Of a stretch of DNA of 64,000 nt, positions 1,921-21,225 are shown one piece after another; positions within the stretch are counted from its first letter, which is position 1; each line of letters opens with the position of its first letter. The translations under genes and the position numbers were made by a program. The notes beneath the pieces were generated by a model, which worked only from the letters and a program-made list of their open reading frames with translations, did no database searches and was not told where the DNA came from. This DNA is from a bacterium HR40 (GTDB taxonomy: Bacteria; Pseudomonadota; Alphaproteobacteria; Geminicoccales; Geminicoccaceae): contig BEIQ01000004.1 of NCBI GenBank assembly GCA_002898275.1, positions 124,001 to 188,000 of the forward strand, read 5' to 3'.

Positions 1921-3110
1921 GGATCCTCTACCACCATCGTGTCGCCTCCCGCGACGGTCAGGCGGTCCACATCGAGGAGCTGGTCGCGGCGCTGCGCCGC
2001 CGGGGCCACGAGGTGCTGGTCGTCGGTCCAGCCACCGTCGAGGCTGTCCCGGTGGGTGGCGAGGTGGCCTGGGTGGCGCGGCTGCGCCGCCATTTGCCCA
2101 AGGCGTTGTGGGAATTGCTCGAGCCGGGTTGGGGTTTGTGGGCGACGCTCCGGCTGCTGCGAGCGGCCCGCGAATTCCGGCCTGACCTCATCTACGAGCG
2201 CTACGCCCTCTACCTTCCGGCCGGAGTGGTGGCGGCCCGCTTCCTTGGCCGACCGCTACTGCTCGAGGTGAACGCACCGCTCGCCGAGGAGCGCGCGACC
2301 CACGGCGGCCTCCTCTTTCCCGACACCGCTCGGCGCATCGAGCGCTGGATCTGGCGGCGAGCCGATCGCATCGTGGCGGTGAGCCGGGTGCTGGCCGAGA
2401 TCGTCGCTGCCGGCGGGGTGGAGCCCGGCCGTGTGCGGGTCGTGCCCAATGCCGTAAACCTCGAGGCCTTCCACGGGCTCGATCGGCAGGCGGCGAAGCG
2501 CGCGCTCGGCCTCGACGGCCACTGCGTGCTGGGTTTCCTGGGATTCGTGCGCGACTGGCACGGGCTCGACCGGGCGATCCGCTTTCTCGCCGCTCACCCG
2601 GACCCGCGCCTCCAGTTGGTGGTGGCGGGCGATGGCCCCGCCCGGCCCGGTCTCGAAGCGCTCGCGACGATCCTCGGGATCGGCCATCGGGTGCGCTTCC
2701 TCGGCGCCATCGCGCGCGACCGGGTTCCGCAGACGCTTGCCGCCTTCGATATCGCCCTGCAGCCGGCCGTGGTGGGCTATGCCTCGCCGCTCAAGCTCTT
2801 CGAATACATGGCGGCGGGCTGCGCCATCCTCGCTCCCGACACGCCCAACATCCGCGAAGTCGTGCGCGACGGCGTCGAAGCGCTGCTCTTTTCCCGAGGC
2901 GCGTTCGACCATAGCCTGCTGCGTCTCGTTCACGATCCAGCGCTCCGAGAGCGTCTGGGAGCGGCCGCCCGCGCCCGCATCTACGAACTCGACCGGAGCT
3001 GGGACGCCAATGCCCGGGTGGTCGAGAAACTCGCGCGCGAACTCGGTGTGCTCGCGGCCACCTCCTCGCACGCGGCGAGGAGCTCGAGACAGCGGTCCTG
3101 CCAGCGATAG
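1908..3110 (+). CDS. Glycosyltransferase family 4, second of the pair
   Basis: 400 residues from ATG 1908, which overlaps the end of the preceding gene by 13 bases; a GTG at 1917 is a possible alternative. The protein starts with the GT-B strand VRILYHHRV, has the linker VVPNAVN near residue 180, the donor-site stretch VVAGDGPARPGLE, and SPLKLFEYMAAG near residue 290, the position of the catalytic-lobe glutamates in GT4. It should act with the previous enzyme in building the repeat unit. The last 130 bases overlap, tail to tail, the minus-strand glycosyltransferase gene, so the C-terminal 40 or so residues (Ser/Arg-rich at the very end) are under dual coding constraint or partly dispensable. 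Confidence 0.83.
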   Translation: MGSVRILYHHRVASRDGQAVHIEELVAALRRRGHEVLVVGPATVEAVPVGGEVAWVARLRRHLPKALWELLEPGWGLWATLRLLRAAREFRPDLIYERYALYLPAGVVAARFLGRPLLLEVNAPLAEERATHGGLLFPDTARRIERWIWRRADRIVAVSRVLAEIVAAGGVEPGRVRVVPNAVNLEAFHGLDRQAAKRALGLDGHCVLGFLGFVRDWHGLDRAIRFLAAHPDPRLQLVVAGDGPARPGLEALATILGIGHRVRFLGAIARDRVPQTLAAFDIALQPAVVGYASPLKLFEYMAAGCAILAPDTPNIREVVRDGVEALLFSRGAFDHSLLRLVHDPALRERLGAAARARIYELDRSWDANARVVEKLARELGVLAATSSHAARSSRQRSCQR

Positions 3111-4255
3111 TGCGCGCGCACATGGGCTCGTGCTGCGGCGCCGAGAGCCGAAGCGCGCTCGCGCGAGGCGAGGAGGCGGCCGATCTCCTCCGCCATGGCC
3201 GCGGCATCGGCTGCCACCGCGAGCTCGCGCCCGGGTAGGGCGGCGATCCCTCGAGCCGCTGCCGGGCTTGCCACCACCGGCTTGGCCATCGCCATCGCCT
3301 CGAGCAGTTTGTTCTGGACTCCGCGAGCGACGGCAAGCGGGACCACCGCGATGTCGGCATGGGCGAGCCACGGCCGAACGTCCTCGACCCATCCCGTGAC
3401 GATCACCCGCTGGCCATCGGCAAGGCGCCGAAGCCGACGGCCGGGATGGCGCCCGACGACGGCGAACCGGCAAGGGAGACCGCGCGCCTCGAGCCGCGGC
3501 AGCACCGCGCGGGCGAACCACAAAGCTGCCTCGGCATTGGGCGGATAATCCATGGCGCCAGTGAAGACGAGGGTCGGGCGGCGCGGCGGTGGATAGGGGT
3601 CGGGAAAGGACAGGGAGGGATCGAAGAAGTCGCTATCGACCCCATTTGTCAGAACACGCACGCCGGGACACGGGCGGGCGTGGACGGCGGCCAGAGCCTC
3701 CACTTCACGGGCCGCTGCCACCAGTGCCAGACGGCAGGCGGCAAGAAGCCGGCGTTCGGTCGCTGCCACGAGCCGCGCTTCGCGGGCATAGAGCAGACGG
3801 TGCAGCGGGTCGCGGGTGCGGTCCGCGAGCTCCGCCCACTTGGCCGCATCGCAATCGACGAGATCGGCCAGAAGCGGCACCCCGACGGCCACCGACGGCA
3901 GGGCTTCGATAGCCGCCAGCGAATAGAGGAAGACGAGGTCGATGCCCTGCCGCAGGCGGTCGGCGACCCAACGCTGCAGCGCGGCGTCGCGGAAGGCCTC
4001 GAGACTCGCGGCGCGACCGGCGAGTACGGCGCGAGCGATCCGAACGGTGCGAACCGTGGTCGGCAGGGGGCGCAGGCAGAGGTCGGCGCAAAGCGGAGAG
4101 AGCGCCCGACGGGCACCCGCTGCGTCCTCCTCGACGTGGGCCCCGAGATACACGTCATGCCGCTGCGCGAGGGCGGTGAGGAAGTGGAACGCACGGATGC
4201 GCTCGCCCTTGTCGGGTGCGGAGGGCGCGCGATGGGCGAGGAAGAGGATGCGCAC
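2981..4255 (-). CDS. TIGR03087-type glycosyltransferase (PEP-CTERM/EPS-associated)
   Basis: 424 residues. The start chosen is GTG 4255 (VRILFLAHRAP), where the family's N-terminal strand begins, 6 bases before the upstream gene's stop codon; the frame stays open upstream to 4435 but that stretch lies inside femAB. Family features: APSAPDKGERIRAFHFL near the N-terminus (TIGR03087 proteins keep this PDKGERIR block), LTNGVDSDFF in mid-protein, and VQNKLLEAMAMAKPVVAS as the GT4 donor motif. TIGR03087 proteins are found in exosortase/exopolysaccharide loci. It is the last gene of the minus-strand operon and its 3' end overlaps the opposing glycosyltransferase gene by 130 bases. Confidence 0.85.
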   Translation of the reverse strand: MRILFLAHRAPSAPDKGERIRAFHFLTALAQRHDVYLGAHVEEDAAGARRALSPLCADLCLRPLPTTVRTVRIARAVLAGRAASLEAFRDAALQRWVADRLRQGIDLVFLYSLAAIEALPSVAVGVPLLADLVDCDAAKWAELADRTRDPLHRLLYAREARLVAATERRLLAACRLALVAAAREVEALAAVHARPCPGVRVLTNGVDSDFFDPSLSFPDPYPPPRRPTLVFTGAMDYPPNAEAALWFARAVLPRLEARGLPCRFAVVGRHPGRRLRRLADGQRVIVTGWVEDVRPWLAHADIAVVPLAVARGVQNKLLEAMAMAKPVVASPAAARGIAALPGRELAVAADAAAMAEEIGRLLASRERASALGAAARAHVRAHYRWQDRCLELLAACEEVAASTPSSRASFSTTRALASQLRSSS

Positions 4256-4260
4256 GCGCG

Positions 4261-5298
4261 TCAACCCAAGGTGCGGGCGATCGTCGGCCCGAGCAGCAGC
4301 GTCACCGGGAACGGCAGGCGCTTCCAGGCTTCGATGAAGAGCCGCAGCCGTGGATGGGTCGGGTTGACCGCGGGCGGCTCGCGCACACGCAGCAGCCGGT
4401 AGGAATAGCGCAGCGGCTCGGAAGGAATGCCCCAATTGCGCTTGAAGTCGTAGGCGCCCGTACCCTGCCGGCTGCGCCCGAAATCGAGGATGCGGGCGCC
4501 ACGGACGAGGGTGGCGTGGCGCATGAGCGCATCGTACATGACATCGTGGGCGCAGAGCTCGCGCGCTTCCGGCAGGGCTCCTGCATAATAAGGAAGCACG
4601 CGGTCGCGGAAGTAGAAGCTCATGACCGCTGCGACGGCCCTTCCGCCGTGATCGACGAAGAGGATTTCGCAGCGGTCAGCGAAGGCGGAGTGGAGCCCGG
4701 CGAACCAGGCACGCGGCAGGATCGGAGTGCCGAGCCGGTGCCAGTTGCGGGCGACCAAATCGTAGAAGCCAGCGAGGTCGTCGCCGATCCTCGTCCGGAG
4801 CCCGAGGCTTCGGCCTTTGCGAATGGAAGCGCGACGTTTCCGGCGGAAGGAGTTGAAGGTGCGTTCGGGGTCGGGATCGAGGGACACCGTGAAGCGATGA
4901 TAGAGTTCCGGTCCCGCCTGCCATCCCGGCCGTCCATCGATCGGGCTGCGGAGCTCGATCCAGCGGGCATCGAGGCTGCGGGCGAGCCGCTCGGCAGCCT
5001 CGAGCAGGGCATCTCGGACCTCCTCGTCGACGCACAAAGGTCCTCCCTCGACGAGGAAGGGAGCGCTCACCAGCGAGCGGCCAAAGAGCGGTGAGCGCAT
5101 TTCCACGAGGGGCAGGACCCCCGCGAGCTCGCCGCCGCGACGGACGGCGAGGTAGTGCGGACGCTGGCGCAGAACCTTGGCGAAGAGCGGGGCGAAGCCG
5201 GAGAGGTGGAAAAACGTCGCGGCGGGATGGCTGGAGACGAACTCGTCCCATGCGCCGGGGCGGAGATCCTCGAGGCGAAGCCATTCGAGCCCGCTCAC
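4261..5298 (-). CDS. FemAB-like protein, XrtA/PEP-CTERM system-associated (TIGR03019)
   Basis: 345 residues, starting at GTG 5298, which overlaps the deacetylase stop (GTGA). The fold is a double GNAT/FemAB acyl transferase: an N-terminal module with SSHPAATFFH and LAGVLPLVEMRS, and a C-terminal module with FNSFRRKRRASIRKG (the FemAB basic helix) and LDFGRSRQGTGAYDFKRNWG (the acceptor-binding end typical of TIGR03019). Members of this subfamily occur almost only in XrtA-type exopolysaccharide loci; the acyl or aminoacyl group transferred is unknown. Open frame continues upstream to 5586, but that region is the out-of-frame deacetylase gene. Confidence 0.88.
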   Translation of the reverse strand: MSGLEWLRLEDLRPGAWDEFVSSHPAATFFHLSGFAPLFAKVLRQRPHYLAVRRGGELAGVLPLVEMRSPLFGRSLVSAPFLVEGGPLCVDEEVRDALLEAAERLARSLDARWIELRSPIDGRPGWQAGPELYHRFTVSLDPDPERTFNSFRRKRRASIRKGRSLGLRTRIGDDLAGFYDLVARNWHRLGTPILPRAWFAGLHSAFADRCEILFVDHGGRAVAAVMSFYFRDRVLPYYAGALPEARELCAHDVMYDALMRHATLVRGARILDFGRSRQGTGAYDFKRNWGIPSEPLRYSYRLLRVREPPAVNPTHPRLRLFIEAWKRLPFPVTLLLGPTIARTLG

Positions 5299-6155
5299 GG
5301 CCGGGTTTCCCCATCGGACAGCGGCGCGAGGCCGAAGGCGAGATCGAGCCGCTGCGAACCGAAGCGCGCGAGGAGCTCGGCGAGGCGCGGCGCCACCGTG
5401 TCGAGCCCGCGGTAATGCCGCAGGCGCGCGAGTGCGGGGAGGCCTGGCGGCCGCGGCTGGTCCGGATCGAGCTCCCAAGGATGGATGTAGAAGACGGCAG
5501 GTTGGTTGTCCCGTCGCAGCACGCGGGCGAGGGCGAAACGGGTCCAAGAGGTCGGAAGTAGCCGGAAATAGCCCCCGCCACCGCAAGGTAGGTTGATCCC
5601 CGGGGCGCGCAGGGTGGCGATGGGAATTTCGAGCACGCCATCGCGCCGACTCGGCCGGCGATTGCCGGTCAGCGATCCGTAGCGGTCGTTGAGCACGGGG
5701 TGAGAAGAGGAACTGTAGCGGTAACCCTCTTCGGCAAGGATGCTATGCGCCCAAGGGGTACGGTGATCGATGGAGAAATTGGCGGCGCGGAAGCCCTGCA
5801 CCCGGACTCCGGCGACGTCCTCGAGGAGAGCGCGGCTGGTGCGCACATCGGCGCGAAACTCCGCGGGTGTCTGCTGCCACACCAGGCGGTGGTCGCAACC
5901 GTGGCTCGCGACCTCGTGTCCGGCCGCCACGATGCGTCGGACGAGCTCGGGGTGGCGGCGGGCCACCTGGCCGAGGACGAAGAAGGTGGCGCGGGCGCCC
6001 GTCGCGGCGAGAAGATCGAGGAGGACCAGCGTCGGCGCCACCACCCGCGACGGGAAGTGGTCCCAGCTCGCGAACGGGACCACCGATGCGAGAGCCCAAG
6101 CATGGTAGTACTCCTCGACATCCACGGTGAGAACGAAGGCTGCGGTGCGGTTCAT
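5295..6155 (-). CDS. Polysaccharide deacetylase, XrtA/PEP-CTERM locus subfamily (TIGR03006)
   Basis: 286 residues from ATG 6155 (ATGA overlap with the upstream ATPase gene). NodB-homology motifs are visible: the metal/catalytic Asp motif TVDVEEYYH (residues 10-18), SHGCDHRL (84-91) with the two metal-binding His, FRAANFS (about 122-128), and the C-terminal YIHPWE block. The enzyme should remove N-acetyl groups from amino sugars in the polymer or its precursor. There is no signal peptide, as is usual for TIGR03006, so the site of action is uncertain. A start 12 bases upstream (ATG 6167) would add only four residues. Confidence 0.9.
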   Translation of the reverse strand: MNRTAAFVLTVDVEEYYHAWALASVVPFASWDHFPSRVVAPTLVLLDLLAATGARATFFVLGQVARRHPELVRRIVAAGHEVASHGCDHRLVWQQTPAEFRADVRTSRALLEDVAGVRVQGFRAANFSIDHRTPWAHSILAEEGYRYSSSSHPVLNDRYGSLTGNRRPSRRDGVLEIPIATLRAPGINLPCGGGGYFRLLPTSWTRFALARVLRRDNQPAVFYIHPWELDPDQPRPPGLPALARLRHYRGLDTVAPRLAELLARFGSQRLDLAFGLAPLSDGETRP

Positions 6156-7348
6156 GACTTGCTCCACAACCGCCCGAACACGCCGCGTCGCTTCATGTCG
6201 GCGAACCGGCTCATGAGATCGGCGAGCCGGCGCGCCGTCTCGGCATCCACCCGCAACTGCTCCACCTCGCGCCGGTGCAATTCCTCGCGCAGCCGGATCG
6301 CCTCCTCGCGCGCCTCGTCATAGCGGTGGCGCTCGCGCACCACCTCCTCGTAGAGGCTCTCGAGCTTGCGCTGCAACCGTTCCACTTCCTGCCGCCAGTA
6401 AGTCGGCGAATCGTCGAAGGCCACCGCGGCAGCCTCTGCCGCCGCGGCCGGGCGTGCGGCGGCCCGTTCCTCGAGGGGCGCGCTTCCGGCTCCGGCTTCC
6501 GGCGGTGGCGGAACGGCGGCCTCGCTCTCGCGCCCGCTCTGCTCCTCGGCCAGTTCCGCTTCGACGATGCGCACGTCCTCGGCCGTCAGCCGATGGAGGC
6601 CCTCGAGGGCGCCGTAGACCAGCAGACGCGAGCACAGCAAATTGATGCGCCGCGGCAAGCCGCCAGTCGCGCGATGGATCTCCCGATAGGCGGCGAGATC
6701 GATGGCCGGATCGCCGCTCCAGCCGACTTTGCGCAACCGGTGTTCGATGTACGCCTGGACCTCGTCCTCGTCGAGCGGGCCGAGATGGCAGCTCGCCACC
6801 ACTCGCTGGCGCAATTGTTCGAGCTCCGGCCGCGCCAGCGTTTCCTTGAATTGCGGCTGGCCCACGAGCACGATCTGCAAAAGCGGGCGCCCGTCCCGCT
6901 CGAGATCGGCGAGAACCCGCAGCTGTTCGATGGAAGCGAGGGGTAGGTTTTGCACCTCGTCGACGACGAGCAACACCCGCTGACGGCGTGCCCGACGGGC
7001 TTCGAGATCGCGCTCGATAGCGGCCAGCAGGACCGCCGGCTCGTCGCTCGTCACCGCGATCCCGAGCGCTCGGGCGACGGCGTGGAGCAGATCGCGCGGT
7101 CCCATCTCGGCAGCGAGGACACGGGCCACGAACAAGCGCTCGCCAGCGAGCGCCCGCTGCAGATAGGCGACGAGGGTGGTCTTGCCGGCGCCGACGTCGC
7201 CCGTCACCACCACGAATCCTTCGCCCTGGTGGAGGCCGTAAGTGAGATAAGCCATCGCACGCTTGTGGGCGCGGGCGCCAAAATAGAAGTCGGGATTGGG
7301 GTTCAGCTGGAACGGACGTCCCGACAGGCGGTAGAAACTCGTGTACAT
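6152..7348 (-). CDS. XrtA-associated ATPase, GspA/ExeA-like (TIGR03015)
   Basis: 398 residues. The N-terminus reads MYTSFYRLSGRPFQLNPNPD, the conserved opening of ExeA/GspA-type AAA ATPases. Walker A is GDVGAGKTT (residues 50-58), Walker B VLLVVDEVQNL (about 125-135), and an arginine-rich sensor helix is at GLPRRIN. After residue 280 an Ala/Pro/Glu-rich linker leads to a long charged coiled coil (about 320-385) and a basic tail. In XrtA loci this ATPase sits between kinase/barrel and deacetylase genes, as here, and is thought to energise assembly or export. It is coupled to its neighbours: 6 bases after the kinase-barrel stop, and ATGA overlap with the deacetylase. Confidence 0.9.
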   Translation of the reverse strand: MYTSFYRLSGRPFQLNPNPDFYFGARAHKRAMAYLTYGLHQGEGFVVVTGDVGAGKTTLVAYLQRALAGERLFVARVLAAEMGPRDLLHAVARALGIAVTSDEPAVLLAAIERDLEARRARRQRVLLVVDEVQNLPLASIEQLRVLADLERDGRPLLQIVLVGQPQFKETLARPELEQLRQRVVASCHLGPLDEDEVQAYIEHRLRKVGWSGDPAIDLAAYREIHRATGGLPRRINLLCSRLLVYGALEGLHRLTAEDVRIVEAELAEEQSGRESEAAVPPPPEAGAGSAPLEERAAARPAAAAEAAAVAFDDSPTYWRQEVERLQRKLESLYEEVVRERHRYDEAREEAIRLREELHRREVEQLRVDAETARRLADLMSRFADMKRRGVFGRLWSKS

Positions 7349-7354
7349 GCCGCC

Positions 7355-9706
7355 TCAGAACTCCCGCGTCAGCTGGGCGAAGATGGTGTTGGACACGACG
7401 TCCTCCGGTCCGTCGCTCTGCCGGAGCGCAAGTTCGTAGCCGAGGCCGAAGCGCGTGTGGCGCGACAGGCGATGGCTTATGCCGAGCTCCAGCGCGAGCT
7501 CGTGAAGCCTGCCACCGCGATCGAAATCGATGCGCTGGGCCTCGAGCAGGAGCTGCGCCTCGGAGCGTTCGGAGAGGCGGCGGAGCCAGCCGGCTTCCGC
7601 GCCCAGACGCCGTTCGTCGGCCTCTGCCGGATCGTCGAACCGGCGCCCTTCGGCATAGACCGTGCCGCGCAAGAGATCCCGGCCGCGCGTCCGCTCCAGC
7701 ACGAGCTCGAGCAGACGTTGGTGGAAGGTGGCGGAGGTCCCGAGATCGAGGTCGAGCTCCGGCACCAACTCGCGGAACTGCGGATCGGCTGGCGGCCTTC
7801 CGGTGTTCCTGAGAGGGGCGAGGGGGTTCCGCGCCGCGATCCGCTCCCGCACGAGCGTCACCCGGTCGACGAGCCGTTCCCGATAGCTCGCCACGAAGCG
7901 GGTCGAAGGGCCGAGCGCCAGCGCCAGTTCCACCTCCATATCGGGCTCGCCGAAGAGACGCCCGTAGCTGCCGGAAAGCCGGATGCCATGCACCGTTTCC
8001 AAGCGAGCGCCGAGCCGGGCATAAGGGCCGCTCGCTTCGCCGCCGGCGAGCGTCTCGTCCTCGAGCTCCGACCAGCCGAGTCCGCCCGAAAGCACGAGTC
8101 CGTCCCGCGGCGCGACTTCGCCGTCGATGGCGACCAGTCGGCTTTGCACCACTCGCGCCGGTTCGTCCCGCGACCGACCGATATCGATGCGGTCGGCTCG
8201 CGCCCTCATCCCCCAGCCTGCCGTTCGCTCCTCCCGCGGCGCGGTTAGGACGAGCCCGACCCCTTGGCTCGTGGCGTCGGCGAGAGCGGGATCGTCGTAC
8301 CGCAAGGAGGCGAGACGGTAGCGCAACTCGAGAGCGAGTGCCTCGCCGAGGCGACCTCGCACAGAAGGGGAGAGCTCGGCGAAATACCGGGTCGTTCGCT
8401 CGTCGGCGAGGGCAAAGCTGGGAATGCGGGCATCGCCCGGCCGGTTCACCCCCTCTTCGCCGATCGACCCAGCCGCGTCGAGGAACAGGAGGTCACGGAC
8501 GAGCTCGATGCCGAGCCCGCCATCGAAGCGCTGACGCAGCTCCGACCCGCCCTCTCCGGTCAGGGTGTGGAGGGCAGCTGCCCCATAGTCGGCGGCGGCC
8601 TGGGCACGGCTCGAGCCGGCGGCGAGCTCCAGCCCGAAGCCGATGCTGCCGACGAGCGCCGGATCCTTGTCGCCTTCCGGTGCAAAGCGGACGTTGTCGG
8701 TGAAGGCGGTCGCGAGCTCGAGGCGGGGTGTGAGGTCGAGCCGGGCGACGGCGACGAGCGGGGGCACGGCGATGGCGGCAGCCAAGAGCAGGGTCAACGG
8801 AGACCAGCCGAAAAGACGGCTCGCGAGGCCCCCTCGGCGGACCGGCGGCGAGACATCGCGATGGTACTCGGTGCCGTAACGGGCATAGCCGGAATCGCCG
8901 CTGGCGCGGTTCAGGACCAGGGCGACCTCGACCCGCTGGCGCAAAAGGGCCACGGCCCGCTCCACTTCGCGCCGCGGGGTCACCCCGGCTTCGACCACGA
9001 ACAGCACCGTGCCCGTCCAGGCGAGCAGCGACAGCACTTCGCTGCTCGCGAGCACGGGCGGGGCATCGATCACGATCACGAGACCGGGATCGGCCTCGAG
9101 CATGCCGGCAAACAGGGCGCCGGTGCGCCGTTCGGCGAGCCGGTCGGGAAAGTCGGTCCCGCCACCTCCCGGCGGCAGACACGTGATGCCGATATCGGTG
9201 CGTCGGAGGGCCTCGGCGGGATCCACCGGTACGTCGGCGAGCAGCTCGGCGAGGCCTGGCGCCGAGGGCAGGCCGAGGAGGCGGGAGGCGCCGCAGCGCG
9301 CCGGGTCGGCGTCGAGCAGCATCACCCGGTGGTCGTGATCGGCGGCCAGCGCCAAGGCGAGCGCGAGGGCGGTGAACGTCTTGCCCTCGTGCGGCCGCGC
9401 ACTCGTGACCATGAGCACCCGATCGCGCCAGTCGCGAGCCTCGGCCAGCTTGGGGCGCAGGGCCGCGCGGAGGGCGCGCGCCTCCTCGGCGCAGGGGTTG
9501 CGCGTCCCGCCGGGCAACGGGATGCCCGCTGCCGCGAGGCGGAGACGGTCGATGGCGACGGGTGGCGGCAGGGAAGGGCCGCCGGCTGCGGCGGTTGGCC
9601 GGCTGGGCTCTTCGATCGTCCTCTCCCCCCGGGCGAGGCGGCGCGCCGCGCGGATCACGAGAGGGTCGCGCGGCCGCGATTGGCGGGCGAGGATGTGCGC
9701 GTTCAT
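7355..9706 (-). CDS. Fusion: XrtA tyrosine autokinase (TIGR03018-like) + outer-membrane barrel (TIGR03016-like)
   Basis: One open frame of 783 codons from ATG 9706 (ATGA overlap with the Wzz-like gene). Residues 1-282 are a BY-kinase: basic N-terminus, Walker A SARPHEGKT (102-110), Walker A' VMLLDAD (128-134), Walker B IVIDAPP (211-217) and a tyrosine cluster (Y274, Y277, Y281) where BY-kinases autophosphorylate. Residues 302-321 are a hydrophobic segment ending VAVA, which looks like a signal peptide with an AxA cleavage site. From about residue 323 the protein is beta-barrel-like (RLDLTPRLELATAFTDNV opening, alternating strands, terminal F) as in TIGR03016. The two parts are normally separate genes. 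I see no stop, and no ATG or GTG in the right place between them; only TTG codons inside the hydrophobic segment. Native fusion, self-cleaving polyprotein or assembly error remain possible. Confidence 0.85.
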   Translation of the reverse strand: MNAHILARQSRPRDPLVIRAARRLARGERTIEEPSRPTAAAGGPSLPPPVAIDRLRLAAAGIPLPGGTRNPCAEEARALRAALRPKLAEARDWRDRVLMVTSARPHEGKTFTALALALALAADHDHRVMLLDADPARCGASRLLGLPSAPGLAELLADVPVDPAEALRRTDIGITCLPPGGGGTDFPDRLAERRTGALFAGMLEADPGLVIVIDAPPVLASSEVLSLLAWTGTVLFVVEAGVTPRREVERAVALLRQRVEVALVLNRASGDSGYARYGTEYHRDVSPPVRRGGLASRLFGWSPLTLLLAAAIAVPPLVAVARLDLTPRLELATAFTDNVRFAPEGDKDPALVGSIGFGLELAAGSSRAQAAADYGAAALHTLTGEGGSELRQRFDGGLGIELVRDLLFLDAAGSIGEEGVNRPGDARIPSFALADERTTRYFAELSPSVRGRLGEALALELRYRLASLRYDDPALADATSQGVGLVLTAPREERTAGWGMRARADRIDIGRSRDEPARVVQSRLVAIDGEVAPRDGLVLSGGLGWSELEDETLAGGEASGPYARLGARLETVHGIRLSGSYGRLFGEPDMEVELALALGPSTRFVASYRERLVDRVTLVRERIAARNPLAPLRNTGRPPADPQFRELVPELDLDLGTSATFHQRLLELVLERTRGRDLLRGTVYAEGRRFDDPAEADERRLGAEAGWLRRLSERSEAQLLLEAQRIDFDRGGRLHELALELGISHRLSRHTRFGLGYELALRQSDGPEDVVSNTIFAQLTREF

Positions 9707-11277
9707 GCCGATCCGCCCTCCCCCGCGAGGGCCCTCAGGGTGGCGTAGACCTGCTGCCGCAGAGCGACGGTGCCCACGCTCAGCTCGACGCCGAGGGCGG
9801 CGGTGAAACTGGCGACGAGCAGGCTCGAGCACAGGCCGAAGGCGAGGGCCGAGGCGACGGCGGTGCGCCGTTCCCGCGCGGTGGGCGCTACCGAGAACAC
9901 GCCGGCCACCGGCAGGGCGAGGGCCTCGCGCAGCTCCTGCGCACTCTCGAACGGCCGTTCGAGGGCGGCACGCAGGATTCCGAAGGCCACCCCGGCGGCC
10001 ACGGCGCCGGCGAACACCACGAGCATCATGGCGAGCCGCGGCGGGCCCGCCGGCACGAGCGGCAGACTGGCGGGTTCGACGACGCGGAACTCCACCCGGT
10101 CGCGGCGAGCGTCGAGATCGTCGGCGATGCGCGCCGCCTCGCGACGGGCGATGAGCTCCTCGTAGTTGCGCTTGATCACCTCGTAGTCGCGGGTGAGCCG
10201 CTTGAGCTCGGCCTCGGTCTCCGGCACGGTGCGGGCCAGCGCCAATAGCTCGCTCAGTGCCTGTTCCGCTTTCGCCAGCCGGTTCTCGAGACTCGCCACC
10301 TCCGCTTCCTCGGCGGCGAGCCGGGCCCGCAGCTGTTCGAAGAGAGGGTTCGGGATCGCGCCCTGGCTCCGCTGTGCGGCGAGCTCGCCCTCGAGCATGG
10401 CGATCGTCCGGCGGAGTTCGAGGATGCGCGGATGGCGCTCGGTGAACCGGCTCTGGAGTTCGGCGAGCTCGCGTTTGAGGCGTGAGAGTTCGGCGGCAGC
10501 CCCCCCGCTCTCGGGCAGCCGGGCAAAGGGGGATGTCGCCAGTGCCAAGCTCTGGGGCACTCGGGCGAGCTGTCGGCGCAGCTCGTCGCGCCGGGCGCGC
10601 GCCGCCTCGAGGTCGGTGCGGGCCTCGAGCACGCGCGTGCGGGCCTGCTGCAGGCGTTGGAAATAGCCTTCCTCGCCGCCGAGATAGTCCATGTTCCGCT
10701 TCTGGAACTCGGCGAGCCGCCGCTCGGCTTCCTCGAGAGCGCGTTCTTGGATGGCGATCTGCTCGTCGATGAAGCGCCGCGCCTTTTCCATATCGCGCCG
10801 GCTCGCCTCGATGGTCGATTCGACGAAGATGTCGAGGAGGGTCTGGACGGTGTCGCGGGCGGTCGCCGGATCGCGCGCCCGATAGACAACCGCGAACAGA
10901 TTGTTCTTTTCCGGGCGCACCAGGATCTTGCGGGCGAGCAAGTCGACCGCCCGTTCGCGCGCCGCCGGATCGGGATAGAACGCCGCTTGACCCGTGCGCT
11001 CGAGGACTCGCTCGAGGTTGGGCCGGCTCAAAAGGGTCCGCTGCATCACCTCGAGGCGCTGAGCGGGATCGGATTCGGGCGTGAGGCCCTTGAGCAGCGG
11101 CTCCAGCAAACCGGTCGTCTCGACCCAGATGCGGGCCTCGCTCTCGAAGGAGTCGGGCCACAACAGCGTCACGACGGAGCCGGGCAAGAACAAGAGCCAG
11201 GCGATGGCGAGACACCCCCAGCGGCGCCGCCGCAGCTGGCGGAGGAAATAGCGCAGGCGCTCGATCTCGCGCTCCAT
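9703..11277 (-). CDS. Polysaccharide chain-length determinant, XrtA system (TIGR03007, Wzz-like)
   Basis: 524 residues. Topology is that of polysaccharide co-polymerases: cytoplasmic basic N-terminus, first membrane helix at about 21-40, a long periplasmic domain rich in coiled coil (about 155-240 and 260-385), the proline-rich PLVPAGPPR just before a second membrane helix (about 414-434), and a third hydrophobic stretch at 473-495. The SSE-like RHPRILELRRTI block is typical. It sets polymer length and normally activates the adjacent BY-kinase. It has no Walker motifs, so kinase activity is supplied by the next gene, with which it overlaps by 4 bases. Confidence 0.9.
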   Translation of the reverse strand: MEREIERLRYFLRQLRRRRWGCLAIAWLLFLPGSVVTLLWPDSFESEARIWVETTGLLEPLLKGLTPESDPAQRLEVMQRTLLSRPNLERVLERTGQAAFYPDPAARERAVDLLARKILVRPEKNNLFAVVYRARDPATARDTVQTLLDIFVESTIEASRRDMEKARRFIDEQIAIQERALEEAERRLAEFQKRNMDYLGGEEGYFQRLQQARTRVLEARTDLEAARARRDELRRQLARVPQSLALATSPFARLPESGGAAAELSRLKRELAELQSRFTERHPRILELRRTIAMLEGELAAQRSQGAIPNPLFEQLRARLAAEEAEVASLENRLAKAEQALSELLALARTVPETEAELKRLTRDYEVIKRNYEELIARREAARIADDLDARRDRVEFRVVEPASLPLVPAGPPRLAMMLVVFAGAVAAGVAFGILRAALERPFESAQELREALALPVAGVFSVAPTARERRTAVASALAFGLCSSLLVASFTAALGVELSVGTVALRQQVYATLRALAGEGGSA

Positions 11278-11287
11278 GGCGACCGTC

Positions 11288-11950
11288 CTAGAAAAGCGCC
11301 TGGGGCACGATGATCACGTCGCCCGGCAGCAATTCAGGGTTGGCGGCGACGTCGCCCTCTTGCAGCAGGTCGGCAAGGCGCAGGCGGTAGCGCACGGCTT
11401 CGCCATTTTGCCGGCGCACCAACACCGACCGGTTGCCGGCCGCGAACTCGGTGAGCCCTCCCGCCTCGATGATCGCATCGAGCGCCGTCATGCCCGGCCG
11501 CCAGACCAGGCTCTGGGGTTTTGCCGCCTCGCCCACTACCCGCACCCGGCGGTCGAAGGAACCGGTGGTCTCGGCCACGATCACCGTCACCACCGGCTCC
11601 TGGACGTAGGAGGAGAGGCGCCGCTCGAGCTCCCGCGCGAGCTCGCTCGGAACCCTACCGGCAGCCTCCAGTTCGCCGGCGAGGGGCAGCGAGATGCGGC
11701 CGTCGGGGCGGACCGTGACGGTGAGCGAGAGATCCCGGTCCTGCCAAACGAAGACCGACAGGCGATCGCCCGGCACGATGCGATAGTCGCGCTCGAGGAA
11801 GAGGTCTGCCGGCACCTCCGCGTGGAGCGGGGCTTCGGGCAGGCTCTCGCAGGCGGAGAGGAACAGGAGCGACAGCGCGGCAAGAGCGCGGCGGAGCCGC
11901 GGGTGCCGGCGATGACCGCTGCGGCGTGTCGGCGGACTGTACGGCACCAT
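11288..11950 (-). CDS. Polysaccharide export lipoprotein, Wza-like (TIGR03027 type)
   Basis: About 220 residues from ATG 11950, the second of two adjacent ATGs (MEPMMVPY); GGAG lies 6 bases upstream of it, which decides the start, although 11962 is possible. A basic stretch and hydrophobic core lead to the lipobox LFLSAC, so the mature protein should begin with a lipidated Cys. The Poly_export domain follows (YRIVPGDRLSVFVWQD, VRPDGRISLPLAGEL), then a SLBB domain (VRVVGEAAKPQSL, LLPGDVIIVPQ). It forms the outer-membrane end of the export channel. First gene of the minus-strand operon; 10 bases separate it from the Wzz-like gene. Confidence 0.9.
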   Translation of the reverse strand: MVPYSPPTRRSGHRRHPRLRRALAALSLLFLSACESLPEAPLHAEVPADLFLERDYRIVPGDRLSVFVWQDRDLSLTVTVRPDGRISLPLAGELEAAGRVPSELARELERRLSSYVQEPVVTVIVAETTGSFDRRVRVVGEAAKPQSLVWRPGMTALDAIIEAGGLTEFAAGNRSVLVRRQNGEAVRYRLRLADLLQEGDVAANPELLPGDVIIVPQALF

Positions 11951-12430
11951 CATCGGCTCCATCGATAGAAATTCGGAACGCCGAAGGACAGCGCAGGGAG
12001 ACATAAGGTTTGCGACCTGCAGCCTTCTGCGCTGGGAAGTTGCCATGGCCCGCTGGTACTCTCAAGGGAGCGACATGGTTAACGGGCACGGTCGTGCATA
12101 TCATGATGAGACATTCGAACCATTGCTCGATCCCGCGGATCGACGTTGCAGCCGTCGGTCGCGTCGGAAGGCTTTACAGAACGGTGCCGTCCGCCTCGTC
12201 CGTCGCTCCCTGTGGCAACCGGGGCGAACCGGCGAGCGCTTCGTTCTCGGGACGTAGTCCGGTATTGCTACGCGCCGCCGTCTGCTTCAGTTTCCCGGCT
12301 CGACCGGATCCTGCCGTTCCAACGGGCCGTCGGTGGCAGGGAGACGGTCGCGGTGGAGCATGCCTCGTCGGGTGCGCCGGGGACGGGGCCGCGGACGCTG
12401 CCGCGGCGGCGTTCTGGACGGGCGGACGAA
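11951..12430. other. Divergent intergenic region, EPS operon / GGDEF-EAL gene
   Basis: About 480 bases between the Wza-like gene and the GGDEF/EAL gene, clearly lower in G+C than its surroundings around 12060-12130 (including the AT-rich palindromic stretch atatcatgatga near 12099-12110). A 70-codon frame (12045-12257) exists but its third-position composition is unlike real genes here. I could not find a good sigma-70 pair on either strand. The region should hold promoters for both transcripts, and part of it may be leader RNA of the exopolysaccharide operon. Confidence 0.4.
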
Positions 12431-15624: not shown

Positions 15625-16530
15625 CTAGCGCTCGATGGCGATGCCGGCGCGGCGCAAAGCGGTCTGCAGGGCGTGGAAGCCGAGAGCCGCCATCTCGAAG
15701 GGATTGGCGCGCTGCGGATCCTGTTCTGCCTCCACCACCACCCATCCGCGATAGCCGATCTCGCCGAGCAGGCGTGCGAGACCGTCGAAATCCACGCAGC
15801 CCTCCGGGTCGCCCGGGACGGTGAATACGCCCGCCACCACGCCGTCGAGGAAGGACCCGTCGGCGGCCCGCAGGTCGGCGAGCACTGCCGGGCGGACGTT
15901 CTTGCAGTGGACGTGGTTGATGCGGTCGGCCCACCGGCGAATGGTGCGTTCCACCGACCCACCGGCGAAGGTGAGATGACCGGTATCGAGCAACAGCCCG
16001 ACGGAGGGGCCCGTCGTCTCCATGAGCCGATCGATCTCCTCTTCCGTTTCGATCACCGTCCCCATGTGGTGGTGGAAGGTCATGGGGCAGCCCTCGGCGG
16101 CCAGCCAGTCGGCGAGGGCGGTCAGCTTGGCCCCGTAGGCGGCGAAGTCGCCGGGCGACAGACGCGGCCTCCGAGAGAGGGGAATCTCGCGCCGGTTCTG
16201 GACCGTGCCGGTGGTCTCGGCGTAGACGAAGACCCGGACTCCGAGGGCGCGGAACAGGTCGAGCTGGGGCCGTGCCCGTTCCTTTTCCGCTTCGACGCCG
16301 CCGGCGAGCAGCTGACCCGAGAACCAGCCGGTGACGAGCCGCAGACCGTAGCGCGCGAGGAGGCGGCCGAGCGCTTTCGGGTCTGTCGGGAACTTGCCGC
16401 CTTTTTCGACCCCGGCATAGCCGGCGAGGGCCGCCTCTGCCAGGCACTGTTCGAGAGGGATCTGGCCACCGAGTTCGGGCAGGTCGTCGTTCGACCAGCC
16501 GATCGGAGCGATGCCGAGCTGCACCGCCAT
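15625..16530 (-). CDS. iolE: Myo-inosose-2 dehydratase (IolE family)
   Basis: 301 residues, full length for the family. The TIM-barrel xylose-isomerase-like fold shows GIAPIGWSNDDLPELGG at the N-terminus (specific to IolE), GVEKGGKFP, FHHHMGT, LLLDTGHL and HVHCKN, which include the divalent-metal ligands. It dehydrates 2-keto-myo-inositol in inositol catabolism. No other iol gene is in the window, so it may work with distant iol genes or on a different inosose. Confidence 0.85.
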   Translation of the reverse strand: MAVQLGIAPIGWSNDDLPELGGQIPLEQCLAEAALAGYAGVEKGGKFPTDPKALGRLLARYGLRLVTGWFSGQLLAGGVEAEKERARPQLDLFRALGVRVFVYAETTGTVQNRREIPLSRRPRLSPGDFAAYGAKLTALADWLAAEGCPMTFHHHMGTVIETEEEIDRLMETTGPSVGLLLDTGHLTFAGGSVERTIRRWADRINHVHCKNVRPAVLADLRAADGSFLDGVVAGVFTVPGDPEGCVDFDGLARLLGEIGYRGWVVVEAEQDPQRANPFEMAALGFHALQTALRRAGIAIER

Positions 16531-16613: not shown

Positions 16614-17591
16614 TCAGCCCCTGCGGGCGAGCCAGCGCCGGCGCACCAAATCGAGCGCGAGATTGGTGGCGGATCGGCGCGGGATGTGGTCGAGACGATA
16701 GGCCTTGCCGGTGGCGATGGCCTCGGCGGCCGCAAGTCCGCTCTCGATGGCGGGACCGATGCCCTCGCCGAGATCGACGGTGGCGAGACCAGCCGCATCG
16801 CCCACGAGATAGATCCCGTCGCGCGCCGGCGCCGGGCCGTCGGCCCGCAGATAGTAGGTGTAGCCGCCGGGACGACGCTCTCCGGCCGCGAGCAAGCCGC
16901 GCCGGCGGAGGCGCTCGACCAGCCTCTCGAAGTGCCGCCAGATACTGTCCTGTTTGGCCTTGAGCGGCTCGGCCAGGGCTCCGACACCGATGTTGATCCA
17001 GCCGTCGGCCTTGGGGATGTACCAATAGTAGCCGGGAAAGCCGTCGTCGAAAAACCAGAAGTGGCACCGCCGGTCGCGCACCTCGTGCGGGAATTCCTCC
17101 TCGAGCGCCGTGATTTGCCGACTCCGCTCGTGGCGCGAGCGATCCCGGAAGAAGGTGCGGTGGACGGGGCAGGAGGTCCCGCCAGCCCCGACCAGGACGT
17201 CGCAGCTGAAGGTGCCGTCCACCACATAGCGGCCATGGCGCCGTTCGATGCTGCGCACCCGGTGGGGGATGACTTCGACTGCCGAGCGAGCGAGCAGGAA
17301 GGCGTCGAATTCGCAGCGACGGATCGAGATCTGCGGGCTGGGCAGCGGCAAGGTGAAGCGCCGGAAGTGGAAATCGAAGCGATCGATCCACAGCCAGCCG
17401 TGGGGATAGTCGGCGGGCAGGAGGCCGAGGGCCCGAGCCGCCGCTTGGGTGACGAGTCCGCCGCAGAGTTTGGTGCGCGGGAAGGTGTCGCGGTCCAAAA
17501 CGAGGCAGTCGATGCCGCGACGCCTGAGGCCGAAAGCGCAGCTCGAGCCGCCAGGTCCGCCCCCGACGATGAGCACGTCCACGTGTCTCAC
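16614..17591 (-). CDS. FAD-dependent oxidoreductase, geranylgeranyl reductase family
   Basis: 325 residues from GTG 17591, which overlaps the methyltransferase stop (GTGA). An N-terminal dinucleotide-binding motif (VDVLIVGGGPGGSS) and the FAD-binding C-terminal motif YLVGDAAGLATVDLGEGIGPAIESG place it in the GG-reductase/PHBH-like flavoprotein group, together with TKLCGGL and GYYWYIPKADG. Such enzymes reduce isoprenoid or lipid double bonds. Tight coupling to a CFA-like methyltransferase suggests a joint lipid-tail modification. Confidence 0.8.
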   Translation of the reverse strand: MRHVDVLIVGGGPGGSSCAFGLRRRGIDCLVLDRDTFPRTKLCGGLVTQAAARALGLLPADYPHGWLWIDRFDFHFRRFTLPLPSPQISIRRCEFDAFLLARSAVEVIPHRVRSIERRHGRYVVDGTFSCDVLVGAGGTSCPVHRTFFRDRSRHERSRQITALEEEFPHEVRDRRCHFWFFDDGFPGYYWYIPKADGWINIGVGALAEPLKAKQDSIWRHFERLVERLRRRGLLAAGERRPGGYTYYLRADGPAPARDGIYLVGDAAGLATVDLGEGIGPAIESGLAAAEAIATGKAYRLDHIPRRSATNLALDLVRRRWLARRG

Positions 17592-18892
17592 GCCGCCTCT
17601 CCACGCGGCCAGAACTCCATGGGCGGTGTCGGGGTCGCCGGATCGTAGAGGAAGTCCCGAGTGGGCGCCCAACCTTCGGGGCGGCGACCTTTGACGAAGA
17701 CGATATGACAGAGGTCGAGGCCGGATTCGAACGTCTCTACGGTTCCCGAGAGATAGAGCGTCCAGATCCGTCGGAAGCGTTCGTCGAACACGTCGGGGTC
17801 GAGAGCTTGGATCTCCGCCCAATGGCGTTCGAGATTGGTGAGCCAGCAGGCGACGGTCTTTTGGTAGTGCGGCCAAAGGTTCTCGACATCGAGCACATTG
17901 AGGCCGAAGCGGTCCATCATCCGCAGCGTGAGTGGCAGACTCGGCAGATGGCCTCCCGGGAAGATGTACTTCAGCGTCAGATATTCGGTCATCTCTCGCA
18001 CCATCTTGAAGGTGCTGGAAAGGACGCCGATCCCGCCCGGTTTCAGGCACACCGCGATGCTGCGGATCCAGCTGGCGTAGCCATGGTAGCCGACATGTTC
18101 GTAGACCCCGATCGACACGTACCGATCGTAGCGTTCCGGCTCCTCGACGAGCTGGCGATGATCCTTTTCCAGGATGCGGATGTCGGCCGCCCCGTGGCGG
18201 CGGAAGCGTTCGGCCATGTAGGCGTTCTGGCGCGGCACCGGATTGTAGACGGTGACGTGACAGCCATAGCGCTTGCGCATGAGCAGCGGCATATAACCCC
18301 AGCCCGCCCCGACCTCCACCACCTCGAGCCCGGGTGCAAGCCGCATTTTGCGCGCGATATAGTCGTAGTTCTGGACCTTGGCCTGGTCGAGGGAATTGGT
18401 GCCAGGCGGCCAGTATCCCTCCGAATAGCCCACGGTCTCGCCGAGGAGGTATTCGAAGAAACGCGGGTCGAGCCCATAGTGATAGATGGCATTCGCCTGG
18501 GCGCGGGCGAGGTCGCGGTTGCTCTGCCGCCATTCCTGCAGCACTTGTTGCAGGGTGACCCAGGGATTGCGCATGAGCACCGCGGCAAGAGGGCCGCGGG
18601 CATAGCGGCTGCCGAGGGCGTCGTGACCGAGGCGGGCGAGCTGGACGATCGGCCGATCGCCCTCGAAGTCCACCTCTTGGTCGATGTAGGATTCGAACAG
18701 ACCCTGGTAGAAGCGCCAGAAGGAGCGTCGTTCGGCGCGCGGCGTGCGGAAACGAATGCGCACGTCGGCGGCCGCGGCGCCGGCGAAGTAGCGGCTGCGC
18801 TCGCCGTTCGCCCACTCCACCTCGAGGGTGAGGAGGCGACTCTTCCGAGTGAGATAGCGGAAGATCCGGTCGAGCCCGCGCCGCGCCAGCAT
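17588..18892 (-). CDS. CFA-synthase-like SAM methyltransferase with altered active site
   Basis: 434 residues, with strong ribosome-binding site GGGAGGAG. It aligns through the whole catalytic part with cyclopropane-fatty-acid synthases: YHYGLDPRFFEYLLG, VVEVGAGWGY (SAM loop), YEHVGYHGY, KYIFPGGHLPS and the C-terminal RRIWTLYL. At the position of the E. coli Cfa bicarbonate-site Cys (YSCGYW) it has Glu (YSEGYW), and the His of the LLHT motif is Ser (LSST). These changes suggest a methyl or methylene transfer to unsaturated acyl chains that does not end in a normal cyclopropane. First gene of a two-gene unit with the FAD oxidoreductase. Confidence 0.82.
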   Translation of the reverse strand: MLARRGLDRIFRYLTRKSRLLTLEVEWANGERSRYFAGAAAADVRIRFRTPRAERRSFWRFYQGLFESYIDQEVDFEGDRPIVQLARLGHDALGSRYARGPLAAVLMRNPWVTLQQVLQEWRQSNRDLARAQANAIYHYGLDPRFFEYLLGETVGYSEGYWPPGTNSLDQAKVQNYDYIARKMRLAPGLEVVEVGAGWGYMPLLMRKRYGCHVTVYNPVPRQNAYMAERFRRHGAADIRILEKDHRQLVEEPERYDRYVSIGVYEHVGYHGYASWIRSIAVCLKPGGIGVLSSTFKMVREMTEYLTLKYIFPGGHLPSLPLTLRMMDRFGLNVLDVENLWPHYQKTVACWLTNLERHWAEIQALDPDVFDERFRRIWTLYLSGTVETFESGLDLCHIVFVKGRRPEGWAPTRDFLYDPATPTPPMEFWPRGEAA

Positions 18893-18984: not shown

Positions 18985-21225
18985 CTAGGCCACTGCGGAG
19001 GGCGAGCTCAGAAGCGAGTCCGGATCGATGCCGAAGGCGGGCGCCCCGTAGACGAGATAGGCGCTTCCCGCCAGCCCCGCTTGCGCCACCGCTGGAGCGC
19101 CGATCAAGAGATCGGCGTATCCGTCGCCGTCGATGTCTCCCGCTCCGCCAAAGGAAAAGCCGGCATAGCCGTCGCGGCGGGTCCCCAAGAGGGTGCAGCC
19201 GCGGCTGCCATCGAGCGTGCCGAGATCGAGGCTTGCCGGAAACGGCCCGCCATGGCCGAGGACGAGATAGGCCTTGCCCTCGCCGCCGGCGTTGCCAGGA
19301 TCGGCGTAGCGCGCACCGATCAGCACATCGTCGAAGCCGTCGCCGTTGACATCGCCGGCTGCAGCCACAGCGCGTCCGGTGCCATCGAGCGGCGCCAGGC
19401 CCTCCATGACAAAGCCGATCCGGCCATCGACATCGGCGAGGTCGACGAACGGCGGAAAGCCGTCGCCGCGGCCGAAGAGGAGATAGGCCGCACCTTGGGA
19501 TTGGCCGCTCGCGCCGACGTGGCCGTAGGCGCCGATCAGAATGTCGTCGAAGCCGTCGCCGTTGACGTCGCCCGCTCCGGCCAACGCGAAGCCGACGAAG
19601 TCGCCCGCGGCCGCACCGCCGACGACGAAGCCGCGACGGCCATCGAAATCGGAGGGAGCGAGGGTCGCCGGGAGCGGATCGGAGGTGCCGAAGACGACAT
19701 ACACCGCTCCCGCGTTGGTCCGCTCCAGGGGGTCGGCATCGGGTGCGCCCACCGCGAAGTCGGCCAAGCCGTCGGCGTTGAGATCTCCGAGCAGGGCGAC
19801 ACTGCGCCCCAGCTGGTCGAAGCGAGCACCGCCCTCGATGCGCAGGCCAGTCGCGCCATCGAGCCCGGCGAGGCGCTCTTCGATTCCGTCGCGCCCGCCG
19901 AACAGCAGATAGGAGAGGCCGCCGCTGTAGCGCGCATAGTCGGCTTCGGCGAGGCGAGCGCCGAGGAGCAGATCGGCGAAACCATCGCCGTTGACGTCGG
20001 CACCTCCGGCTACCGATCGGCCGAGTTCGTCGCCGGCGGCGAGGCCGTCGATACGCGCCAAGCGGGAAGAGGACAGCGCTTCGATCGCTCCCGACGGCGG
20101 CCGTTCGCCGCCGAGCAGCAGATAGACGGCCCCGCTGTCGACGCCACCGCCATCGACCCCGATGGCCCCGATCGCGAGGTCGGCATAGCCGTGGCCATTG
20201 ACATCGCCTGCCGCCGCGAGCGAGGTGCCGAGATGGTCGCCGGTAGCCGCCCCATCGAGGCGGACGACCCGGGGGTCGGCATCGAGGGCGATGCGGTCGG
20301 GTAGCCGCTCGCCGTTGCCGAAAACGAGGAATACCGCACCTCGCGCCCCGGATCCCGCCTCGGGGGCACCGATCGCCACATCGCCAAAGCCGTCGCCGTC
20401 GATATCGCCCACGAAGGCGAGGGCGAGGCCGGTACGGTCGCCGATCGTCACGCCCGCAAAGATGGTGCCCACGCCGTCGGCCAGATGCTGCGAATCGAGC
20501 GGCAGCGGGCAGAGAGGAGGGGGTGGCCCGGTGTCGACGAGCAGGCTGAGGTCGGCGAAGTTGCGGTCGCGGTAGTCCAGGTCCTCGAAGGCAAGCCAGG
20601 TCTGGCCGGGCTTGGGGCCCGCTGCCGCGAGCACGTGTTCGACGCCATCCGGGTTGAGGGGATTGGCAGCGGTGCCGTCGTCGGTGGGATCGCTAGTGAA
20701 GAAGAGCCGACCTCGCACTTTGGTGCGTCCGTCTTCGTCCTCGTGGACGAGGCGGAGGTGACGAGGATCGGTGGCGAGCGTCGCATCCTCGCCGGTGCGG
20801 CGGTCGATCAGGCGGAAGCCGTCGCGCTCGGCGAACAGTTCTGGCGGATTGCGGCGAAAACCGTTCTGGACGAGGAGGAGCCCGAACTTCTGTCCGGGCG
20901 CGAGAGCCCCCGCGCCATAGATCTCGGAGAGGCGTACGCTGTCGCCAGGGAGGAGGGGTCCCCGCCCGTCCCGCTCGCGGGGCTCCGTAGGATCGGGGCG
21001 AGCGTCGCTGACATCGGCCCACACCAGGCGCGGATCGCGCAGCCGGCCGTCGCGGTCGACGAGGAAGACGAAGAGGCTGTTATGGAACCCCGCCCGCTCG
21101 TCGAGATAGGTGAGGGTGGCATCGCCGTGGGCACCGACACGGAGGCGCGATGCCGCGACACCGCGAATGGTCTCGAGATCGATTTTGCGCCGAGTGACGA
21201 CGGGTAACGGACCCGACGGCTCCAT
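18985..21225 (-). CDS. DUF4114 + seven-FG-GAP beta-propeller protein
   Basis: 746 residues. The N-terminal part (about 30-230) matches DUF4114 (FHNSLFVFLVDRDG and WLAFEDLDYRDRNFADLSL, the latter resembling the calcium-site FED-DRDFND block). From about residue 245 there are seven FG-GAP repeats, each with a calcium-loop of the form D-[IVL]-[ND]-G-[DH]-G-x-x-D followed by IGA (for example GDIDGDGFGD, GDVNGDGFDD), which predicts a seven-bladed integrin-like propeller. No classical signal peptide is visible; secretion by a type I system is possible. The C-terminus has no PEP-CTERM motif. Likely a surface or extracellular adhesion protein; the ligand is unknown. Confidence 0.85.
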   Translation of the reverse strand: MEPSGPLPVVTRRKIDLETIRGVAASRLRVGAHGDATLTYLDERAGFHNSLFVFLVDRDGRLRDPRLVWADVSDARPDPTEPRERDGRGPLLPGDSVRLSEIYGAGALAPGQKFGLLLVQNGFRRNPPELFAERDGFRLIDRRTGEDATLATDPRHLRLVHEDEDGRTKVRGRLFFTSDPTDDGTAANPLNPDGVEHVLAAAGPKPGQTWLAFEDLDYRDRNFADLSLLVDTGPPPPLCPLPLDSQHLADGVGTIFAGVTIGDRTGLALAFVGDIDGDGFGDVAIGAPEAGSGARGAVFLVFGNGERLPDRIALDADPRVVRLDGAATGDHLGTSLAAAGDVNGHGYADLAIGAIGVDGGGVDSGAVYLLLGGERPPSGAIEALSSSRLARIDGLAAGDELGRSVAGGADVNGDGFADLLLGARLAEADYARYSGGLSYLLFGGRDGIEERLAGLDGATGLRIEGGARFDQLGRSVALLGDLNADGLADFAVGAPDADPLERTNAGAVYVVFGTSDPLPATLAPSDFDGRRGFVVGGAAAGDFVGFALAGAGDVNGDGFDDILIGAYGHVGASGQSQGAAYLLFGRGDGFPPFVDLADVDGRIGFVMEGLAPLDGTGRAVAAAGDVNGDGFDDVLIGARYADPGNAGGEGKAYLVLGHGGPFPASLDLGTLDGSRGCTLLGTRRDGYAGFSFGGAGDIDGDGYADLLIGAPAVAQAGLAGSAYLVYGAPAFGIDPDSLLSSPSAVA

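Follow-up and report, generated by a model that had tools for sequence, protein, structure and literature searches.

A conserved gene pair for a CFA-type methylase with an altered bicarbonate site and a geranylgeranyl-reductase-type flavoprotein in an alphaproteobacterium

The closest described system to the locus considered here is tmpBA (for ten-methyl palmitate), which is known from Marinobacter, Thiohalospira and Desulfobacter. In these operons the gene for a CFA-like methylase is followed by that for a flavoprotein resembling archaeal geranylgeranyl reductases (GGRs), a class of enzymes described as acting on isoprenoid membrane lipids, whose double bonds they reduce (PMC7791843). Four of five tmpBA operons are reported to have given 10-methylenepalmitate in E. 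coli, and the putative reductase TmpA is described as showing no activity in E. coli or in yeast (PMC7791843). Another arrangement, bfaAB, leads to 10-methylstearate and is described as coupling a CFA-like methylase to a flavoprotein that reduces the 10-methylene intermediate (PMC5660069, PMC7791843). BfaA is assigned there to a different flavoprotein family from TmpA, the gene order is given as opposite, and BfaB is said to conserve the bicarbonate site (PMC7791843). In the pathway to furan-type fatty acids, UfaM is described as methylating fatty acyl chains with SAM, and UfaD as a flavin-linked enzyme that resembles phytoene desaturases (PMC7380195).

The gene pair described here lies in a window of 64,000 nucleotides, which is the whole stretch of DNA that was analysed, from a genome (G000) of 2.89 Mb that is assembled in 8 contigs and rated 100% complete. 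As in tmpBA, a CFA-like gene is directly followed by a GGR-type flavoprotein gene, and the two form a two-gene unit with the same order. The first gene (17588..18892, minus strand) encodes P0001, a CFA-type SAM-dependent methyltransferase of 434 amino acids. The second (16614..17591, minus strand) has a GTG start and encodes P0002, a GGR-type FAD flavoprotein of 325 amino acids. The sequence GTGA (17588..17591, minus strand) contains both the start codon of the flavoprotein gene and the TGA stop codon of the methylase gene, which therefore overlap by four bases. This architecture suggests that translation of P0001 and P0002 is coupled. Other overlaps of four bases are found at L047 and at three tmpBA-like loci discussed below (L068, L069 and L071). 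A ribosome-binding-like GGAGGAGAC stretch is located upstream of the methylase gene. When positions 16614-18892 are read on the plus strand they are interrupted by stops, and therefore this is not the coding strand.

Immediately upstream of the pair is a gene for an FG-GAP repeat protein of 746 residues (18985-21225). Downstream and on the same strand is an iolE-type gene (15625-16530; TIGR04379, 372.6 bits, cut-off 290), directly adjacent to which no other inositol gene was recognised. Also downstream are a cytochrome c gene and, on the opposite strand, an NnrS gene. Elsewhere in the window (2981-12046) there is an exopolysaccharide-type locus with genes for a glycosyltransferase, a FemAB-like acetyltransferase, a DUF3473 polysaccharide deacetylase and an AAA ATPase, as well as a Wzz/GNVR-like protein that scores below its cut-off and a frame that we read as a putative polysaccharide-export lipoprotein.

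Family and bicarbonate site of the methylase

CFA enzymes depend on bound bicarbonate. In Cfa, this ion is described as removing a proton after methyl transfer (PMC10491745, PMC3132707), and the bicarbonate-site residues C139, E239, H266, I268 and Y317 are called strictly conserved in non-plant enzymes in one of these reports (PMC3132707).

P0001 matches PF02353 (CMAS) at 2.7e-49 with 168.4 bits, above the Pfam cut-off of 27. A sequence search of the PDB gave CFA synthases as its nearest solved relatives, and the best PDB matches to its predicted structure are the CFA synthases 5z9o, 7qos and 6bqc, over 403-414 columns and nearly the full length of these three synthases. The model, which was used for fold only, has a mean pLDDT of 75.0 and is of moderate confidence around the altered site, with block means of 63 and 74 for residues 151-170 and of 65 for residues 291-300. 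Against the NCBIfam CFA equivalogs the best score of P0001 is 175.8 bits, far under the cut-off of 600, and therefore P0001 is not a standard Cfa. The same genome also encodes an ordinary Cfa (L001), which has all five bicarbonate-site residues and scores 578 bits against the equivalog cut-off of 600.

When P0001 is aligned with E. coli Cfa (MAFFT), two of the five bicarbonate-site residues are kept, namely E239 as Glu265 in the motif EHVG and Y317 as Tyr343, and the other three are replaced. C139 corresponds to Glu158 in the motif YSEGYW (18410..18427, minus strand), H266 to Ser292, which is the first Ser of the motif LSST (18011..18022, minus strand), and I268 to Thr294 in the same motif. 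Judging from this alignment, Glu158 would occupy the bicarbonate pocket. The first-pass annotation of this DNA had proposed that the Cys is replaced by Glu and the His by Ser, and that the Glu of EHVG and the last Tyr remain; all of this is borne out, and the change of I268 can now be added. It had also described the SAM loop as retained, which is true of the outline, but the loop is only partly kept (EVGAGWGY, versus DIGCGWG in E. coli Cfa). Both E. coli Cfa and L001 share with P0001 the fold, the outline of the SAM loop, E239 and Y317, and differ from it at three of the five positions of the bicarbonate site.

There are 52 rows in the alignment from which residues were counted. It is made up of those matches for which loci were extracted, with further homologue matches staying outside, and it includes six CFA loci (L022, L024 and L030-L033) that are absent from the tree alignment and that all have C139 and H266. 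Position 139 is C in 45 rows, E in five, M in one and S in one, while position 266 is H in 46, S in five and Q in one, and position 268 is I in 39, M in six, T in five and V in two. E239 is found in every row and Y317 in 51, the remaining row ending before that position. The combination of E139, S266 and T268 is carried by all five members of the P0001 clade, including a partial ortholog that is broken over two contigs and ends before Y317, and by none of the 47 other aligned family members. A DNA pattern for YSEGYW, in which Ser was encoded as TCN only, matches three of 396 genomes, and the two matches other than P0001 lie in stretches without CFA similarity. Among the open-licence papers that were listed, no description was found of a CFA-type methylase with Glu at the Cfa C139 site, or of such a pair in alphaproteobacteria.

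Other departures from the consensus occur among CFA-family proteins. The protein of L029 has M at position 139, and an alphaproteobacterial homologue (L038:4665-5828) has S at 139 together with Q at 266, a pattern of S and a non-H residue that is also described for cotton enzymes (PMC3132707).

The flavoprotein partner and the lineage of the pair

The best NCBIfam match of P0002 is TIGR02032, the geranylgeranyl reductase family (3e-36), with 125.6 bits against a cut-off of 158.8. The tmpA-like protein of G562 is likewise under this cut-off, with 155.4 bits. P0002 matches the DAO, FAD_binding_3 and GGR models and does not match FAD_binding_4. The motifs FPRxKxCGG, PGYYWYIPK and GD(A/S)AGLA are kept throughout the P0002 clade, and the CGG and YxWxxPK elements among them, along with orthologs that stand beside the methylase, support the assignment of this protein. 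In the tmpA-like proteins the second motif reads GYxWxFRK, and the five of them exceed P0002 in length by 44-54 residues. A structure model of P0002 was set aside (mean pLDDT 45.5).

Among 60 relatives that were searched, P0001 orthologs with 71-77% identity are found in four genomes beyond the source genome, all of them in the genus g15. Orthologs of P0002 (65-67%) adjoin the methylase in each of the five genomes that have P0001 or its ortholog (the source genome and the four of g15), a co-conservation that is drawn from two genera within one family. The first-pass annotation had read the neighbouring gene as an FAD-dependent reductase of the lipid/isoprenoid type that overlaps the methylase gene by four bases, and had called for a search for conserved pairs; the overlap and the family of the partner agree with that reading, and the search has recovered the pair. 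Six peptide patterns, by which close relatives only are detectable, returned three orthologs and one distant homologue across the genome collection. A search for P0001 in 385 genomes of the class, a sample that gave no g15 match, found only the source genome passing 1e-48. Plasmids were considered as a source of the pair and set aside, as the plasmid search gave no P0002 match at 1e-5.

A lone P0002 homologue (about 50% identity) is carried by G017 at L046:5338-6321, with no methylase beside it. In our reading, the neighbouring frames of that locus resemble a tungstate-type ABC transporter and a peptide ABC transporter.

Eight neighbour proteins from the window (IolE, cytochrome c, NnrS, the FG-GAP protein and four others) were sought by tblastn at 1e-5, and none was found around the g15 pairs or the G017 homologue. 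This search covered nine loci in stretches of 4-19 kb each, three of these loci being second copies of the same contigs. This search points to no third operon member among the eight neighbours around the g15 pairs, where some of the stretches were short. Because the pair is together in five of five genomes and the tested neighbours were not recovered around the g15 pairs, P0001 and P0002 constitute a conserved unit in these two genera.

A profile of P0002 gave 13 matches outside the window among 398 genomes of the phylum. They are distributed over 12 genomes, none of which belongs to the class of the window. Five of them (in G537, G457, G562, G529 and G469) are located directly behind a CFA homologue, with the methylase first, and on the basis of this architecture we infer that these loci are tmpBA-like and probably identical with published operons. 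For the other eight, there is no CFA homologue in the stretch examined, which in some cases was ended by a contig end.

A first CFA tree suffered from long branches meeting and was replaced by a rebuilt one, for which 11 rows were added and a Mycolicibacterium row and 11 active-site columns were removed. The over-long N-terminus of L017 was trimmed for the CFA trees and alignment. In the rebuilt tree, P0001 and its orthologs join three methylases from Variovorax plasmids (100/99), apart from the tmpB-like clade. When P0001 is constrained to group with the tmpB-like rows, the tree is worse by 20.5 log units (p-AU 0.073), and this grouping is thus disfavoured though not rejected. In the flavoprotein tree, which leaves out the G052 homologue (L045), P0002 is sister to the tmpA-like clade (86/87), and an alternative in which it groups with flavoproteins that stand unpaired in other genomes is not rejected (p-AU 0.192). 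These trees suggest that the pair arose by the joining of two lineages, a Variovorax-like one for the methylase and a tmpA-like one for the flavoprotein.

Proposed function and its alternatives

The reading that we favour, at a probability of roughly 0.55, is that the two genes form an operon whose products modify membrane acyl chains in two steps, methylation with Glu158 as base and then reduction, and that the pair is thus a functional counterpart of tmpBA and bfaAB. The homology of both proteins, the residue changes, the overlap of the genes and their co-conservation form its basis. The two genes are presumably co-transcribed. In the predicted first step, P0001 would move the methyl group of SAM onto the double bond of its probable substrate, a phospholipid-bound chain. 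Glu158, where Cfa binds bicarbonate, would act as the putative base and take a proton from the carbocation, and this deprotonation without ring closure would leave a methylene- or methyl-alkene chain. In the step proposed to follow, P0002 would reduce that double bond with an electron donor that is not encoded in the operon, and the predicted product is a methyl-branched saturated chain. Most likely, therefore, the pair makes branched membrane fatty acids.

Methylene transfer with reduction is the best reading because the published tmpBA operon is built alike and 10-methylene acids are the product of its methylase. The first-pass annotation had left the second step as either reduction or oxidation, and the tmpBA precedent favours the former. 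Oxidation would mean a furan-type or methyl-diene pathway in which methylation is followed by desaturation by the flavoprotein. The likeness here is that the furan pathway has both a SAM-dependent methylase for fatty acyl chains (UfaM) and a flavin-linked lipid enzyme (UfaD) (PMC7380195). However, UfaD is described as phytoene-desaturase-like (PMC7380195) whereas P0002 is GGR-like, and no third gene travels with the pair among the neighbours examined, all of which makes this pathway very improbable. As set apart by description, the furan pathway also differs in having UfaO, of which there is no counterpart in the pair, and no UfaD-like or UfaO-like gene was recognised in the pair or among the neighbours that were examined.

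It is also unlikely that P0001 is an ordinary cyclopropane synthase whose bicarbonate site has drifted and which happens to lie beside a flavoprotein of unrelated function. Such drift has some precedent, in that two of three cotton CPS proteins are reported with S at C139 and cotton proteins with other residues at H266, the C139S mutant of E. coli Cfa is reported to retain 31% efficiency (PMC3132707), and the homologue at L038 departs from the consensus at both positions. The changes in P0001, however, alter charge and are invariant in five of five orthologs, and the flavoprotein partner is kept in all five while the tested neighbours were not recovered. Furthermore, since an intact ordinary Cfa is already present in the genome, the pair is unlikely to duplicate cyclopropanation. 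About equally doubtful is action on an isoprenoid chain, such as that of a quinone or another prenyl lipid, wherein P0001 would methylate a double bond of the prenyl chain and P0002 would then saturate it. P0002 is of the appropriate type, and the fold matches of P0001 include the FPP methyltransferase 9sm1, though far below the CFA synthases (1.7e-15 versus 2.8e-24). Moreover, no desaturase of PF00487 or PF03405 was found in the source genome, whereas the same searches match in 5 of 14 and 1 of 14 control genomes, respectively. FabA was not found either, as the sole PF07977 match (L095:1420-1905) is FabZ, with 171.9 bits for fabZ (cut-off 155.15) and 27.8 bits for fabA (cut-off 238.15). This lack of a usual source of unsaturated chains among FabA, PF00487 and PF03405 bears equally on the ordinary Cfa and on the pair. 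It keeps a prenyl-lipid substrate alive, though the sole squalene/phytoene-synthase-type match in the genome is weak by NCBIfam. This protein exceeds the Pfam cut-off for SQS_PSY (40.7 versus 26 bits), but the one NCBIfam model that it matches is HpnD, with a score of only 30.9 (cut-off 278.6). For this reason we consider it neither a carotenoid or hopanoid enzyme nor a squalene/phytoene synthase. No prenyl or quinone gene was recognised among the examined neighbours. P0001 has all of the CFA architecture, its N-terminal part included, and this makes phospholipid acyl chains a more likely substrate than soluble isoprenoids.

Several observations weigh against the favoured two-step reading with acyl chains as substrate. 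TmpA is described as inactive in E. coli and yeast (PMC7791843), the G017 homologue of P0002 and eight of the 13 phylum matches stand without a CFA-type partner in the stretches examined, and the source genome yielded none of FabA, PF00487 and PF03405. In addition, P0001 groups with the Variovorax methylases rather than with the tmpB-like clade, and support for P0002 beside the tmpA-like clade is only 86/87, with the alternative at p-AU 0.192.

A more specific and more tentative proposal is that P0001 and its orthologs represent a bicarbonate-independent branch of the CFA family. The carboxylate of Glu158 would take up the vacated pocket, His and Ile being replaced by Ser and Thr, and the reaction would stop at the methylene or methyl-alkene stage, after which a dedicated GGR-type reductase would saturate the chain. 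In that case the reductase would have been acquired independently of bfa and perhaps of tmp as well. To our knowledge, what determines whether a cyclopropane or a methylene product is formed is not settled, and a naturally occurring branch in which a carboxylate side chain takes the place of bicarbonate would offer a direct mutational test of the question of the base. If P0002 works as proposed, it would be a GGR-type reductase for acyl chains, an activity described as unseen for published tmpA genes in E. coli and yeast (PMC7791843).

Comparison with known systems

The pair differs from tmpBA in its methylase. All five tmpB-like methylases keep Cys139, Glu239, His266 and Tyr317 (with Val at Ile268 in two of the five), in contrast to the E, S and T found at positions 139, 266 and 268 of P0001, and the best tree places P0001 outside the tmpB-like clade, though not firmly. 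The bfaAB system, of which BfaA and BfaB are known here by description, likewise couples a CFA-like methylase to a flavoprotein. It differs in that the reductase gene comes first, the flavoprotein is of a different family, and the bicarbonate site is conserved. We take BfaA to belong to the FAD_binding_4 family.

The Variovorax plasmid methylases (CP063167, NZ_CP070344) are the nearest relatives of P0001 outside its bacterial family, at about 37% identity. As with P0001, a flavoprotein gene overlaps or directly follows the methylase gene in two of the three loci. However, all three methylases keep Cys139 and His266 as normal bicarbonate-site residues, and the partner is an FAD_binding_4 oxidoreductase, which is of a different family from P0002. 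The loci of methylase and partner are L078:3917-6491, with the FAD_binding_4 gene itself, L081:4001-6482, with a 78% homologue of it, and L079:3911-5288, with only a short remnant match. The Variovorax pairs are located near stress and metal genes, and they are possibly a bfa-like pair outside actinobacteria with a reversed gene order. Two further plasmids carry CFA-family genes beside redox genes. In Streptomyces virginiae (L088:862-3559), genes for a desaturase and a protein of the nitroreductase/quinone-reductase family and a cfa gene are in overlapping order, which may be a methylase-redox lipid cassette, and in Halomonas (L087:497-3712) genes for an NAD(P)/FAD-dependent oxidoreductase, fabI and a CFA-family protein lie in a row.

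To judge from the related pairs, lipid methylases seem to have taken on flavin partners of different kinds. Among these pairs, the one described here combines a tmp-like architecture with a bicarbonate site that is unseen in any other family member examined.
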